Source of the DNA: Comamonadaceae bacterium
Lineage (GTDB): Bacteria > Pseudomonadota > Gammaproteobacteria > Burkholderiales > Burkholderiaceae
Assembly: GCA_947374535.1 (NCBI GenBank)
Contig: CANCCJ010000003.1
Span: 1 to 64,000, forward strand
Length of the DNA: 64,000 bases
Direction: 5' to 3'
The position numbers were made by a program, and so were the translations under genes. Under the pieces are notes generated by a model. The model made no database searches and was not told the DNA's origin. It saw only the letters and a list, made by a program, of their open reading frames with translations. This document shows, piece after piece, positions 46,128 through 54,947 of the stretch; position 1 is the first letter of the stretch, and every line of letters starts with the position of its first letter.

Positions 46128-46862
46128 TCACGAAGGGGTTGCAAGCCCACGCAGCTGCAGATGCACCGCATCGCCCAAATCCACAGGCTGTTGGTGTTTG
46201 GCTTTGAGGTAGTGCTCGGTGTACACGTCAAAGTAGGCGTTCAAAGCGGCTGCAGCTTGGGTGTCGCCAGCCAAGTCTAGGCACATGGCGCCGACTTCGG
46301 CGGTGCAAAAGTGTGCCTCGCTCTGGGCGCGGCGCAGTTGGTAGCGGGATAGTTGGTCGGGGTGCAGACTGAGCACGGGGAAGGGCTGCAGGTAGGGGCT
46401 TTTGCGAAACATCTTGCGTGCTTCGTCCCAAGTGCCGTCGAGCAGGATGAATAAGGGGCGCTTGGACGTGTGATGCGCCAACTGATGCACCACGCGCTCA
46501 GCATCGGCAAATTCGCTGGGAAACACCACATAGGGCTGCCATTGCGGGTCGGCCAGCAGCGCCAGCAAAGCGGGGGCCACTTCAGTGCGCGCCCAACCAA
46601 AGGCGAAGGTGTCGGCCACCACATCGGCAATGAGCCAACCGGTGTTGCTGGGTTTGAGCGGTTCGATGTCGGCCATCAACAGGCACACAGCCGAGTGCGT
46701 GGGCACGACAGGGCGCAAGGCGCAAATGCAGTGGCTGGGTACCAAGCGGCAGCCCGCGCAACGCTCGCCTTTGGGGCCACCGCGGGCTAGAAAAGGTTTC
46801 ACGCTGCGGGCGAGGCGGGCAGCGCGCAGGCGAGCAACGGCGTGGGGCAGGTAGACGGACAA
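46128..46862 (-). CDS. tapT: tRNA-uridine aminocarboxypropyltransferase (DTW domain, TapT family)
   Basis: 244 residues, from a TTG at 46862; a GTG at 46802 is an alternative, but the PHAVARLRAARLARS segment before it is typical of the family. A cysteine cluster CAGCRLVPSHCIC, then LDGTWDEARKM (the D-x-T-W motif) and RAQSEAHFCTAEVGA. Family members transfer the aminocarboxypropyl group of SAM to U47 of tRNA (acp3U). Located between RbgA and an uncharacterised operon on the same strand. Confidence 0.88.
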   Translation of the reverse strand: MSVYLPHAVARLRAARLARSVKPFLARGGPKGERCAGCRLVPSHCICALRPVVPTHSAVCLLMADIEPLKPSNTGWLIADVVADTFAFGWARTEVAPALLALLADPQWQPYVVFPSEFADAERVVHQLAHHTSKRPLFILLDGTWDEARKMFRKSPYLQPFPVLSLHPDQLSRYQLRRAQSEAHFCTAEVGAMCLDLAGDTQAAAALNAYFDVYTEHYLKAKHQQPVDLGDAVHLQLRGLATPS

Positions 46863-46920: not shown

Positions 46921-48123
46921 TTATTCAGCCACATGGCACTCGCGGCGCAGCAGCGCCAGCGCATCGTGCAGCTTGTAGTCGTGATCGCTGGCCAGTGTGG
47001 CTTGTGCTTCGTCGATGAACGACGCCCACATGTCAAGGTAGCCTTGCTGGTGTTCAACAGGCGCGTTGGCCGTGATGAATGCCGCAGCCAATTCGGGCTG
47101 CATGCCTGATTTGCGAATTTTGCGAATCAGCGTGGTCGCCGATTTCTCGCTCAGCAGCGTTTTGCCCGTGCTGCCTGCGGCGATGCACAAGAACAACGTG
47201 AGCAAGGAGCCGTCATCGCTGTGACCGCCTGTGGCCTTGGCCCAAGCGGCGGAGGTTTGGCGGTCAAAGTGGTCGACCTCGGCCAAGCCGTCTTCCACCC
47301 AAAAGTAGCGACCTACAAAGGCGGGCGTTTGGTTGAACAACTTTTGCGGTGTGAGCTTGACATCCAAGATCTTGGGCAAGTCGGCTTCGACGCTTTGACG
47401 AATCACCTCGACGGCGGCTTTGAACTCGGCAGGCAAGTTTTTGGGCAGCACGAGTTGGATGGTTTTGGTCGCGCTGGGTTTGCGCAGTGTGGTGATGATT
47501 TTTTGAAACGCCACCCAATCGGGCATGTCGGTGTGTTTGGTAGCCGCAGCCAACAGCGCGGTGCGAATCACCGCTTCGGCATCGCAGCCTGCTTCTTCTA
47601 AATCATCGGCGTGCAGGCCCAGTTGGTCGGCCATCCAAATGGCGGCGTCGATGATGTGGGCGACTTGTTGGCGTTTGCCGAGTTCGGCTTGGTAGTCGGC
47701 CAAATTGCACAGCGACCATTTGGCTAATTGCGCAATGTGCTTGTCGCTGAAACCGCCATGCTCGTTCATGCCAAAGTGCGTGTTTTGCGGCATGACGATC
47801 AGGGCCTTGAGCATGTCAGACGCTGCCTTGGAGCGCGACATGAACGAGTGCTCGCGCAGCGCTTCGGCGGCTTTGCGCAAATCACCGCTGCTTTGAATTT
47901 CAAGCGTCAGACTGACCATGTTGACGATGCGGTCCTTGGCTTTTTCTAACTCGGGTCGCAAAAACTCGCTGCCAAAGTAACGCGCAATTTGCACCATGCC
48001 TTTGGGTGCATCGTTTTGGATGGCCTCGAGTTTGGCGCTGTCCAGCACGCCGTGTTGCACGCCATAGGCCAATGCCTTTTCAAAGAAAGGGCGGTCATCA
48101 AAAAGGGCAACGGTTTGCGTCAT
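46921..48123 (-). CDS. Uncharacterised 400-residue protein of the J-domain operon
   Basis: Soluble, no signal peptide or membrane segment, apparently mostly helical, with ATG at 48123. Recognisable pieces are DDRPFFEKALAYGVQHGVLD at the N-terminus, EALREHSFMSRSKAASDMLKALI around 85-107 and WVEDGLAEVDHFDRQTSAAWAK around 270. No catalytic motif stands out. It lies 14 bases after the 251-residue protein on the same strand and 58 bases before tapT. Not assigned to a family; function unknown. Confidence 0.75.
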   Translation of the reverse strand: MTQTVALFDDRPFFEKALAYGVQHGVLDSAKLEAIQNDAPKGMVQIARYFGSEFLRPELEKAKDRIVNMVSLTLEIQSSGDLRKAAEALREHSFMSRSKAASDMLKALIVMPQNTHFGMNEHGGFSDKHIAQLAKWSLCNLADYQAELGKRQQVAHIIDAAIWMADQLGLHADDLEEAGCDAEAVIRTALLAAATKHTDMPDWVAFQKIITTLRKPSATKTIQLVLPKNLPAEFKAAVEVIRQSVEADLPKILDVKLTPQKLFNQTPAFVGRYFWVEDGLAEVDHFDRQTSAAWAKATGGHSDDGSLLTLFLCIAAGSTGKTLLSEKSATTLIRKIRKSGMQPELAAAFITANAPVEHQQGYLDMWASFIDEAQATLASDHDYKLHDALALLRRECHVAE

Positions 48124-48137
48124 GTGGGCCAGCGAGC

Positions 48138-48893
48138 TTAGATGGCAGATTCTTCGTCCGAGTCGCGGGCGACGGGGGTGGCTTTGCCACGGTCGGTGGC
48201 GCTGGTTTCCACGCGGTCGTCGTTTTCTTCGTCGTCCTCTTCGGACAAACCAGCATCATGTGCGCGGGCTTTCGCGCGCAAGACCAACAGCATTTCGATA
48301 AAGAGATCGGGAATTTTGTGCCGCAGTATCCAAGCGAGTTGCATCCAATCTTGGTCGGCCACTTCGTCTTCTTCCACGCGTGGCTTTACATAGGCAGAGC
48401 CGAGCAGGGCGCTTTCAGACAGCATGTCGCCGTCGTCTTCCATGGTGTCAAAGGTGCCGGTGCGGGCGAAGGCTTCGATGCGGCTCCACTTTTCGCTGAA
48501 GTAGTCGGCCAGCGCTTCAGCGCCGCCTTCTAAATCGCCAATCGCGGTGAGGAACTCCACCGTGTCGGCGTCTTCTCGAAAGATGATCGAGTTCATCATG
48601 CCGCGCAGGTGGGTGCGGGTCAGGTCTTTGTATTGTTTTTCAATCACCACGGCGCGGGCAAATTGCTCGGGTGTGACCAGCAGGTTGATGACCGATTCTT
48701 TGGATGTGTCGTATTCACGGATGACGGCCAAGATGTCTTTGGGCGGCAACTGGTCCAGCACCACCATCAAGGCTTGGTCGCCCTCGGCATCGGCCAGCTC
48801 GACCAACGCCGCTTCCGCGCCCGTGATGTCGCCAGCGGCGATCAAGCTTTGTGTTTTGGCAATCAGGGTGAGTGCGTTGGTTTTGTCGGTCAT
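48138..48893 (-). CDS. Uncharacterised 251-residue acidic protein of the J-domain operon
   Basis: ATG at 48893. Residues 1-200 look helical and soluble, with LPPKDILAVIREYD near 60 and a VIEKQYKDLTRTHLRGMMNS stretch (about 93-112). The last 40 residues are highly acidic (SEEDDEENDDRVE), probably disordered. No catalytic motif seen. Separated by 11 bases from the 182-residue protein upstream and 14 from the 400-residue protein downstream. Function unknown. Confidence 0.75.
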   Translation of the reverse strand: MTDKTNALTLIAKTQSLIAAGDITGAEAALVELADAEGDQALMVVLDQLPPKDILAVIREYDTSKESVINLLVTPEQFARAVVIEKQYKDLTRTHLRGMMNSIIFREDADTVEFLTAIGDLEGGAEALADYFSEKWSRIEAFARTGTFDTMEDDGDMLSESALLGSAYVKPRVEEDEVADQDWMQLAWILRHKIPDLFIEMLLVLRAKARAHDAGLSEEDDEENDDRVETSATDRGKATPVARDSDEESAI

Positions 48894-48904
48894 GTGTGTC
48901 GTCT

Positions 48905-49453
48905 TTATTCTTTGCTGTCGAAGCCTTGTTCGACCATCCATGCGTTGCCGGCTTCTTCGCGTTCGCGGGCTTCACGTTCTTCGTCTTGTTCGGGCTGGTC
49001 GCCGCGTTCCACGTTTTCCAAGTCTTCGTCTGCATCGGCATCGCTTGACTTGGTGGCACTGCGCATCGGCGTGCCGTGCATATATTCAAGTGCGGCAGCC
49101 ACGCTCATGAACCATGCGCCCACGGGCTCGGCCAAAATTTTGTCAACCATCGGTTGCGCCCAAGTGGCGATGCGCACGCCTTCAGACAACGCATCCCAGC
49201 TCAGCAAATCATCGGCGTCCAGCGTGAGGAAGTGGTCCATCAACTCGGGCTCTGTGAACTCAAACGCTTGGTGCAACACCACCGCCACCATTTCGGGGTT
49301 GAGGTCGAGCATTTGCAACAAAAAGTCCAACTCTTTGCGTTTTTCAGCCAAACGTTTGTCGAGGATGTATTGGCCTTCGGAGTCGGAATTAAGGTCGTCC
49401 AACTCGGCTTGGTAGGCCGAACGCAGCTCTTGGAAAAATGGGGAAATGCTCAT
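48905..49453 (-). CDS. Uncharacterised 182-residue acidic protein of the J-domain operon
   Basis: ATG at 49453, overlapping the J-domain protein's stop by four bases. The first 130 residues are helical (SPFFQELRSAYQAELDDLNS, KRKELDFLLQMLDLNPEM), the rest is a charged Asp/Glu/Arg-rich tail (DADADEDLENVERGDQPEQDE) of the kind seen in disordered partners. The overlap with a J-domain protein suggests they may act together. Family not recognised. Confidence 0.75.
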   Translation of the reverse strand: MSISPFFQELRSAYQAELDDLNSDSEGQYILDKRLAEKRKELDFLLQMLDLNPEMVAVVLHQAFEFTEPELMDHFLTLDADDLLSWDALSEGVRIATWAQPMVDKILAEPVGAWFMSVAAALEYMHGTPMRSATKSSDADADEDLENVERGDQPEQDEEREAREREEAGNAWMVEQGFDSKE

Positions 49454-49746
49454 GGTGTGTTTGATATCCGGTTCAGCACGTGCTGAAAGTAGGTTCGCCA
49501 AATGTCGCGCGCGGTTTGCGCTGGATCGTCTAACAAATTTCTGCGGCGGTTGTCATCGTAGGCTTGTCGTTTCGCGTCGTCTGACAGCACATCGTAGGCT
49601 TCTTGCACTTCACGAAAACGCGCTGCCGCGTCTTCGGCGGTGTTGCGGTCGGGGTGAAACTGCGAGGCTTTTTGGCGAAACGCGCGTTTGATGTCCGCCA
49701 GCGTGGCATCGCTTTTGAGCCCGAGAGCGGAATAGTGTTCAGACAC
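49450..49746 (-). CDS. Small J-domain protein (DnaJ-like, single domain)
   Basis: 98 residues from a GTG at 49746 with AAGG about 11 bases upstream. It is almost a bare J domain: DIKRAFRQKASQFHPDRN contains the HPD triad needed to stimulate Hsp70 (DnaK) ATPase, then REVQEAYDVLSDDAKRQAYD. There is no Gly/Phe region, zinc finger or substrate-binding domain. Such proteins deliver DnaK to one particular client or complex. It sits directly before the three uncharacterised acidic proteins and shares an overlap with the first. Confidence 0.88.
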   Translation of the reverse strand: MSEHYSALGLKSDATLADIKRAFRQKASQFHPDRNTAEDAAARFREVQEAYDVLSDDAKRQAYDDNRRRNLLDDPAQTARDIWRTYFQHVLNRISNTP

Positions 49747-49760
49747 GGACGAACCTTAAA

Positions 49761-50285
49761 TTACAGCGCTTGCTTGAGGCGAATTTCTTCCACCTTGACG
49801 GGGCCCATGGGCACCGTCTTGGCGCTAGACATTTCGCGCTTGAAGCCAGCCAGTTCGAAAAAGCGCATGGCGCGGTCATTGGCAATAGGCACCCAGATGG
49901 ACACATGGGTGCAGCCTTCTTCTTGCAGGCCTTCGCGGGCGGCGTCCCACAAAGCCAAGCCTACGCCTTGGCCCCAGTAGGCGGGATCCACATACATGTC
50001 CCAAATTTCGCCCATGGTGTTGGGTGTGCCTTTGTCGCGAGAGCGGTCATAGCCGACGAAGCCAACGATCTGTTCACCCTCCACAGCAACTTGCACTTGG
50101 GGTTCAGCAAACTCAATGGCTTCGCGCCAATGAGTGGTGGTTTTCTCTTCGGGCACCGGCAGCACTTTGGCGCCAGTTTGCATGGTTTTGAAAGCTTCTT
50201 TGGCGGTTGCAGCGTACAGCTCGGCGATTTGGGTGGCGTCGCGCATCACAGCGGGACGGACTTCAACGGTTGTCAGATCGGACAT
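49761..50285 (-). CDS. GNAT family N-acetyltransferase
   Basis: 174 residues. The GNAT motif A region, YVDPAYWGQGVGLALWDAAREG, contains the acetyl-CoA-binding QxxGxG/A (Gln-Gly-Val-Gly). N-terminal VRPAVMRDATQIAELYA is typical. It heads the minus-strand eight-gene run, 14 bases before the J-domain gene, and is divergent from dusC. Substrate unknown. Confidence 0.87.
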   Translation of the reverse strand: MSDLTTVEVRPAVMRDATQIAELYAATAKEAFKTMQTGAKVLPVPEEKTTTHWREAIEFAEPQVQVAVEGEQIVGFVGYDRSRDKGTPNTMGEIWDMYVDPAYWGQGVGLALWDAAREGLQEEGCTHVSIWVPIANDRAMRFFELAGFKREMSSAKTVPMGPVKVEEIRLKQAL

Positions 50286-53168: not shown

Positions 53169-53219
53169 AATATGGGTCTAGTTTCAGGGCGCCCCTGCTA
53201 TTTTTATAAGTGATTGATC

Positions 53220-54947
53220 GTGCCCACTCAAAGTTTTATTCTCGGCAAAGACGCGCCGCTCGAATCCACCATCAACACCCTACAGGCCAAGTTGCAGGCG
53301 ATGGGGTTTCACATCCAAGAAAAGAGTTGGCTCAATCCGGTAGAAGGCATTTGGTCGGTTCACATCCGCGACCGCGATTGCCCCGCCTTGTTTGCCAACG
53401 GCAAAGGTGCCACGCGCATGGCGTGCTTGGCCAGTGCCTTAGGTGAGTTCTTTGAACGCTTGGCCACCAACTATTTTTGGACGCATTTTTACCTCGGGCC
53501 TCTCACAGCCGATGCCTCGTTTGTGCATTACCCGCAAGAGCGTTGGTTTGATTTGACCGACGATGGGTCGTGGCCCAAGGGCTTGCTCAACGCCGAACTG
53601 CACAAGTTCTACAACCCTGAGGGCAACATCGATTGCGCCAACTTGGTGGACTTCAACTCGGGCAATGTGGAGCGCGGCATTTGTGCCATTCCGTATGTGC
53701 GCCAGCGCGATGGCGAGACAACCTACATCCCCGTCAACATCATTGGCAACTTGTATGTGAGCAACGGCATGTCCGCGGGTAACACTGCGGCAGAGGCGCG
53801 CACGCAAGCGCTGTCTGAGATTTTTGAACGCCATGTGAAAGCCAAGATCATCAGCCAAGGCATTTGTTTGCCCGATGTGCCCGAGGCGGTGATCAACCGC
53901 TACCCACGCATCGCCGCAGGCATTGCAGCGTTGCGCGCGGCTGGCTTTGGCATCTTGGTGAAAGACGCTTCGTTGGGCGGTAAGTACCCCGTGATGAACG
54001 TGACCTTGCTGCACCCCGAAGACCAAGGCTGCTTTGCCAGCTTTGGCGCGCACCCTCGTTTTGAGGTGGCGCTAGAGCGTGCCCTGACCGAGTTGCTGCA
54101 AGGCCGCGCTCTCGATACCTTGGGCGGTTTTTCAGCCCCCACGTTTGATTTAGAAGAAGCGGCCAGTGCGCCCAACATCGAGATTCACTTTGTGGATTCG
54201 AGTGGCGTGATTCACTGGGAGTTCTTGGGCCAAATTCCAGACTATGTGTTTGTGGATTGGAACTTTGCCAACACCACCGCTGAAGACTATGCGTATTGCG
54301 TGAAACGCATGCATGACGATGGCTTTGACATCTACATTGCCGACTTCGAGCACCTAGGCGTGTACGCCTGCCGCGTCTTGGTGCCAGGCATGTCTGAGAT
54401 TTACCCCGTGGACGACCTTGACTTTGAGAACAACAGCATCGCCAACGACATGCGCGAGGCCATTCTCAACTTGACCGATCTCGACAACGAAGAGTGCTCG
54501 GGCCTATTGGCGTCGTTGAACGAATCTAACTTGGCCGATGAGCGGCCCGTGGCGGGCTTGGTTGGCATGGCCGCAGATGCGGGTAGCTTTTGGGCTGACT
54601 TGCGTGTGGGTGAACTTAAGACCTTGTTGGCCTTGGCTTGCGGTGATGAGGCCGCCACCGTGGAAGGCTGTGAGTGGATTCGCCACTTTGACCAAATCCC
54701 GCAGCAACGCCGTGCGGTGTATGCGTGTATCGAGACCTTGGTGTTGCTCACCGACCGTGGCGACACCGCGCCTTATGTGGGCGCAATTCGCCAGCTTTAC
54801 GGCGCTGGGGTATTTGAGCAAGCGCATGCACTCATCATGCAGACAGATCGCTTTATGGGCATCTCAGCGCCGGGGCTGATGATGGCGGGCTGTGAGATGC
54901 AGCACAAGTTGTGGGCGGCTTATGAAAAAGTGCAAGTGCACAAATAG
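53220..54947 (+). CDS. ycaO: YcaO, ribosomal protein S12 methylthiotransferase accessory protein
   Basis: 575 residues from a GTG at 53220; an in-frame TTG lies two codons earlier. Its opening (PTQSFILGKDAPLEST) lines up with the E. coli YcaO start, and the whole protein follows it closely: SVHIRDRDCPALFANGKGA, ALGEFFERLATNYF, MNIIGNLYVSNGMSAGNT (as NIIGNLYVSNGMSAGNT), ASFGAHPRFEVALER, TELLQGR. The ATP-binding residues of the YcaO fold are included. The C-terminal 130 residues form the TPR-like part. E. coli YcaO assists RimO in beta-methylthiolation of S12 Asp88. No rimO is in this window. Confidence 0.92.
   Translation: MPTQSFILGKDAPLESTINTLQAKLQAMGFHIQEKSWLNPVEGIWSVHIRDRDCPALFANGKGATRMACLASALGEFFERLATNYFWTHFYLGPLTADASFVHYPQERWFDLTDDGSWPKGLLNAELHKFYNPEGNIDCANLVDFNSGNVERGICAIPYVRQRDGETTYIPVNIIGNLYVSNGMSAGNTAAEARTQALSEIFERHVKAKIISQGICLPDVPEAVINRYPRIAAGIAALRAAGFGILVKDASLGGKYPVMNVTLLHPEDQGCFASFGAHPRFEVALERALTELLQGRALDTLGGFSAPTFDLEEAASAPNIEIHFVDSSGVIHWEFLGQIPDYVFVDWNFANTTAEDYAYCVKRMHDDGFDIYIADFEHLGVYACRVLVPGMSEIYPVDDLDFENNSIANDMREAILNLTDLDNEECSGLLASLNESNLADERPVAGLVGMAADAGSFWADLRVGELKTLLALACGDEAATVEGCEWIRHFDQIPQQRRAVYACIETLVLLTDRGDTAPYVGAIRQLYGAGVFEQAHALIMQTDRFMGISAPGLMMAGCEMQHKLWAAYEKVQVHK

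Follow-up and report, generated by a model that had tools for sequence, protein, structure and literature searches.

Gene layout of the locus

The stretch of DNA analyzed here (the window) comprises 64,000 nucleotides from a Comamonadaceae bacterium. Four genes on its reverse strand, denoted J, A, B and C, encode a small J-domain protein and three further proteins, and are given below in reading order together with the two genes that flank them.

49761..50285 (-), flanking gene for a GNAT acetyltransferase (Pfam Acetyltransf_1, 9.5e-19); lineage-specific and not counted in the system
49450..49746 (-), J, atcJ-like gene with a GTG start for a J-domain protein of 98 residues, with an HPD motif and a C-terminal extension that carries P-x7-W (PAQTARDIW)
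48905..49453 (-), A, atcA-like gene for a protein of 182 residues with an acidic tail and a conserved motif of the WMVEQGFDSKE type at its end
48138..48893 (-), B, atcB-like gene for an acidic protein of 251 residues, predicted to be all-helical with a low-confidence tail ending in DEESAI
46921..48123 (-), C, atcC-like gene for a protein of 400 residues, predicted to be all-helical; the N-terminal ~95 residues are homologous to AtcC and the C-terminal half is branch-specific
46128..46862 (-), flanking DTW-domain gene (tapT-like; Pfam DTW, 7.7e-56); lineage-specific and outside the system

In the window, the reading frames of J and A share 4 bases, and the gaps between A and B and between B and C are 11 and 14 bases, respectively. 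The coordinates, strand, overlap and gaps given for the four reading frames by a first-pass annotation of this DNA were borne out. The same annotation had described three acidic proteins, which is correct for A and B (computed pI of 4.2 and 4.3) but not for C, whose pI of 5.9 is not strongly acidic. The GNAT gene lies 14 bases upstream of J, so that the co-directional run starts before J; it may be co-transcribed with J in the lineage of the window, and was seen only in loci L001-L014 among the 80 loci compared below. On the other side, the DTW-domain reading frame starts 58 bases downstream of C. Elsewhere in the window, positions 53214-54947 encode a protein of 577 residues, which looks like a YcaO-domain protein.

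Conservation of the four-gene block and of the J-protein tail

A scan of a genome collection with C found 113 relatives, the best 80 of which were used as loci. The record titles of these 80 are mostly Comamonadaceae, Rhodoferax, Polaromonas, beta proteobacteria or Burkholderiales, and among the matches listed, the named C homologues include two from Limnohabitans that are 89 and 87% identical, which makes a Limnohabitans-like Comamonadaceae the most likely source of the window. Across the best 80 of the 113 relatives, the order J-A-B-C was present in 73 loci; a J gene without the other three, which would have spoken against a single unit, is therefore not the rule. B and C only were found in five loci and C only in one, on contigs that begin no more than 1.2 kb upstream of C. 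In the remaining locus (L049, 116-1946), J is joined directly to the final third of B, with C behind it; the loss of A and of the larger part of B apparently reflects an internal deletion of the operon or a fault of assembly. Seven further beta-proteobacterial loci (L152-L158), five of which are more divergent, all carry J-A-B-C together with a P-x7-W tail. Spacings and lengths in the beta-proteobacterial set are approximate, since its gene starts were trimmed by positional comparison with the window, and B sequences shorter than 200 residues (L003, L020 and L049) were dropped before counting, which left 77 B sequences including that of the window. When a B profile was used on genomes of unstated completeness, the gene was detected in 14 of 61 genomes of one genus and in 48 of 299 genomes of its family, and the system looks accessory and patchy in distribution.

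J matches Pfam DnaJ (1e-22) with the domain at residues 3-64 of 98, and it has the make-up of the short J proteins of the Atc family, namely a J-domain with HPD and only a short C-terminal extension. The P-x7-W motif in this extension, which reportedly marks the Atc family, was present in 75 of 75 J proteins (the window and 74 loci), as was HPD, in a set that was gathered with the window J as query and is biased to similar J proteins. Shuffled J tails gave P-x7-W in 574 of 15,000 cases, a figure to be read with the 75 real proteins being related and hence non-independent. By eye, the motif was also read in four of four gamma-proteobacterial J proteins and in four of four from a third group, introduced below. 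Against the NCBIfam AtcJ model (NF050028), residues 1-87 of J aligned to positions 1-93 of 93 with an E-value of 5.1e-17 and 62 bits, where the curated threshold is 150. Six DnaJ-type models of a general kind had lower E-values than AtcJ, but their matches were confined to the J-domain (TopJ and DnaJ at 86 and 84 bits).

Relationship to the Atc family

A, B and C had first been taken to be of unknown family, a description that no longer stands, since the family has a described member in atcJABC of Shewanella oneidensis and the window cluster is related to it gene by gene. The curated NCBIfam Atc models (NF050028, NF047888, NF047889 and NF047890) gave little sign of this: A matched the AtcA model at an E-value of 0.056 (13 bits, cut-off 200), B gave no match to the AtcB model, and C matched the AtcC model at 9.5e-5 over residues 9-92 (22 bits, cut-off 370), so that all four window proteins scored below the curated cut-offs. 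In Pfam, A, B and C gave no match to a family such as the IscU Fe-S scaffold.

We obtained comparison operons from gamma-proteobacteria. A search of the class with the AtcC model returned the starting genome only (1 of 369), and a search of the same class for the SeqA marker returned 0 of 114; a phylum-wide SeqA search (13 of 200) then provided the centre from which one gamma-proteobacterial order was reached. In this order, the AtcC model matched 49 of 394 genomes, 44 of them over the cut-off, and one of these operons, L118, scores above the cut-off with each of the four NCBIfam Atc models. The five matches that fall short of the AtcC cut-off form a third, more distant Atc group (L113-L117), in which A has 153-155, B 215-217 and C 306-310 residues; P-x7-W is present in all four contigs that hold J, whose J proteins have 86-88 residues in three and 111 residues as called in L113. 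L114, the sole third-group set scanned, is under all four NCBIfam cut-offs.

Profiles were built from 74 A, 77 B and 81 C sequences for the beta-proteobacterial branch, from 31 of each for the gamma branch, with L118-L120 excluded as repeats of L083, L099 and L108, and from five of each for the third group. The hhalign E-values given here are single-pair values with no database correction. Between the beta and gamma profiles, the A-A, B-B and C-C pairings gave E-values of 4.4e-5 (probability 69%), 1.5e-3 (17%) and 7.6e-7 (92%), respectively. Against the third group, B was paired at 2.2e-4 (45%), and A and C, at 0.19 and 0.069, were not significant. The twelve mismatched pairs of the beta profiles with the gamma and third-group profiles all had E-values of at least 0.17. 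When the gamma and third-group sequences were combined, the three pairings reached 4.6e-6 (86%) for A, 9.1e-6 (83%) for B and 6.9e-7 (92%) for C, and the six mismatched pairs had E-values of at least 0.18 with probabilities of at most 0.3%. As the matches lie on the diagonal only, A, B and C each pair with the gene at the same position of the Atc operon and with no other, and are homologous to AtcA, AtcB and AtcC, the aligned part being N-terminal for B and C. The sizes and charges of A and B are likewise close to those of the gamma copies (A, 182 residues in the window and 159-208 in gamma, pI 4.2 in both; B, 251 and 251-259 residues, pI 4.3 and 4.2).

The branches differ most in C. As trimmed, C has 400-447 residues in the beta branch, against 296-300 in gamma and 306-310 in the third group. 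Residues 1-195 of C matched gamma AtcC at an E-value of 2.8e-7, while residues 196-400 had no detectable counterpart in gamma AtcC by profile-profile comparison (E-values of 0.27 and 0.46), so that the homology of the window C does not run over the whole length of AtcC. Against gamma AtcC alone the alignment reached residue 194; it ended around residue 92-105 when the N-terminal half of C was used by itself or when the combined profile was the partner, and only the first ~95 residues are therefore counted as firmly shared. The similarity of gamma AtcC to the third group is likewise confined to the N-terminal ~100 residues, and full-length AtcC homology thus does not define the wider family. 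B is common to the branches over about its first 125 residues. Its end reads DEESAI in 74 of 77 beta copies and D-D/E-M-F-S-F-L in 28 of 31 gamma copies; the end motif of A, W-M/L-x-x-Q/L/H-G-F-D/E in 73 of 74 beta copies, also differs between branches.

Structure prediction and Pfam searches used 67 of the 81 C sequences and 62 of the 77 B sequences as input. AlphaFold2 modeled C as all helical (pLDDT 81, pTM 0.57; 67 sequences) and B as all helical with a low-confidence tail (pLDDT 74, pTM 0.67; 62 sequences). A structure search with the two models gave no clear relative for either, which is not proof of new folds. The top two rows for B were MgtE N-domains, below the bar that the tool sets for helical models, and the comparison of B with the MgtE N-domain profile (E-value of 0.024, probability 2%) gave no backing; the N-terminal superhelical domain of MgtE is no more than a lead for B.

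Given the scores below the cut-offs and the N-terminal location of the shared parts of B and C, the four genes, judged by sequence comparison, are by descent a divergent beta-proteobacterial branch of the Atc family and not NCBIfam equivalogs. They share with S. oneidensis atcJABC the gene order, a J protein of 94-98 residues with HPD and a short tail, an A of ~180 residues with an acidic tail, a B of ~250 residues and pairwise homology of A, B and C. Unlike S. oneidensis AtcC, the window C carries ~100 additional residues, and no counterpart of its C-terminal half was detected; A and B end in other motifs, and the window proteins do not reach the NCBIfam cut-offs. Weber et al. (2023) reportedly describe an AtcJ subfamily of short J proteins whose tail bears P-x7-W and which are encoded alongside atcA, atcB and atcC homologues, and this subfamily is said to occur mostly in aquatic beta- and gammaproteobacteria, so that the family would already have been described there. 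The window cluster fits this subfamily as so described, and is a real, conserved unit of a kind that is already known rather than new. Weber et al. 2023 (Environ Microbiol 25:2447, doi 10.1111/1462-2920.16478) is the work that PMC10939069 cites for conservation in environmental proteobacteria.

Proposed role and alternative explanations

According to Maillot et al. 2019 (Commun Biol 2:323, PMC6715715), atcJABC of Shewanella oneidensis is a cold-adaptation operon in which AtcJ consists of a J-domain followed by a tail of 21 residues, the genes atcA and atcB measure 540 and 759 bp, and AtcC has a mass of 34 kDa. The tail mediates the binding of AtcJ to AtcC with a Kd of 7 nM (80 nM for the tail peptide), DnaK is stimulated by AtcJ, and AtcB is bound by AtcC. 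The same text reports very poor growth at 7 °C when AtcJ, AtcB or AtcC is absent, whereas an atcA deletion grows like the wild type. A meeting report gives AtcJ 94 residues and has AtcB contacting RNA polymerase (PMC7871303). HscB-IscU and other class C J proteins, as presented in the 2019 paper, also combine a short J protein with a dedicated partner in one operon (PMC6715715); HscB-IscU differs in that IscU is a known Fe-S scaffold, and A, B and C of the window gave no match to such a family in Pfam. Our literature search found no experiment on any beta-proteobacterial copy.

On the evidence observed here, namely the four genes with their shared order and their conservation, the motif in the J tail and the gene-by-gene homology, we favor the reading (probability of roughly 0.78) that the locus is a divergent beta-proteobacterial operon of the atcJABC type, in which J, C and B would bring DnaK to a specific target and support growth in the cold. 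The binding of J to DnaK, of J to C and of C to B, the cold phenotype and the link to RNA polymerase are predictions for this branch, carried over by analogy from Shewanella. In this mechanism, J would be a short co-chaperone whose J-domain stimulates DnaK and whose C-terminal P-x7-W tail docks on C; C would hold B, and J, C and B together would recruit DnaK to the specific target. Because the meeting report has AtcB contacting RNA polymerase in Shewanella (PMC7871303), the point of action would most likely be transcription at low temperature, through which the system may keep cells growing in the cold. A would be a conserved accessory protein. The branches have the J tail motif and the N-terminal region of C most firmly in common, and we infer on this ground that the N-terminal ~95 residues of C are a candidate docking site for the J tail. 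The reading as a dedicated J-protein system, postulated from the tight linkage of the genes, holds, as each gene of the cluster has its homologue in an operon in which AtcJ acts with AtcC and DnaK and AtcC with AtcB; the partner of J shown in Shewanella is AtcC and not AtcA, the counterpart of the adjacent 182-residue protein A, and an AtcJ-AtcA interaction was not detected there (PMC6715715).

We considered whether a module that is of Atc type by descent has been retargeted, with the C-terminal half of C and the tails of A and B steering DnaK to another client, and with its role shifted from cold to some different stress. The N-terminal position of the securely conserved parts of B and C, the DEESAI end of B where gamma copies have D-D/E-M-F-S-F-L, and the length of C (400-447 residues as trimmed, against 296-300) all agree with such a change. 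However, the branch retains the gene order along with the tail motif of J and the N-terminal region of C, lineage-specific tails are common in proteins with an unchanged role, and some carriers bear the names of cold places (Rhodoferax antarcticus), with the cold-tolerant Polaromonas among the carrier genera, and we therefore regard retargeting as clearly unlikely. Along related lines, Atc could be pictured as a modular DnaK-targeting device, with a fixed core formed by the tail of J and by the N-terminal parts of C (~95 residues) and B (~125 residues), and with exchangeable, lineage-specific C-terminal parts and end motifs such as DEESAI on B and WMVEQGFDxK on A that would direct DnaK to different machines, in which case the client or role in Comamonadaceae would differ from that in Shewanella; we put this forward tentatively, as a doubtful though conceivable extension. 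That the cluster is an unrelated J-protein cluster which came to resemble Atc by convergence, as a J protein with three acidic or helical proteins, might be argued from the scores below the curated cut-offs and from the global alignment identity of 21-26% to one gamma copy, yet three profile pairings on the diagonal and none off it, together with an identical gene order and an identical tail motif, make this very improbable.

The neighborhood of the block bears on a further proposal, made from position alone by the first-pass annotation, that the J operon helps in ribosome or tRNA work jointly with tapT and rbgA, which lie downstream. Both genes are closely spaced on the common strand in the window, and among L001-L014 a tapT-like gene is present in 13 of 14 loci and rbgA in 11 of 14. 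Across the 64 loci whose sequence extends 2500 bp or further downstream, in contrast, the tapT-like gene was found in nine and rbgA in eight, none of them outside L001-L014, that is, only among the closest relatives; in other groups, LolC/LolD-like genes were read by eye upstream of the block, or a PilZ-like gene in convergent orientation downstream of it. Of the 62 loci with 4000 bp or more of sequence upstream of C, 10 carry the GNAT gene and 10 a dihydrouridine synthase gene, again all in L001-L014. As the block is self-contained while its surroundings vary, the positional hint falls, and we give the ribosome or tRNA explanation hardly any credence. As a separate observation made by eye, a Polaromonas-rich group (L050, L052, L056, L065, L069 and others) has the operon just downstream of LolC/LolD-like lipoprotein export genes.

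Reading the locus as a divergent operon of the atcJABC type places four genes of freshwater-type Comamonadaceae that would be called hypothetical in a described chaperone network. The curated NCBIfam Atc models miss the beta branch, so that routine annotation would leave these genes unnamed. For the family, the comparison indicates which parts of the Atc network survive deep divergence, and it narrows the likely docking site of the J tail to a piece of ~95 residues of C.
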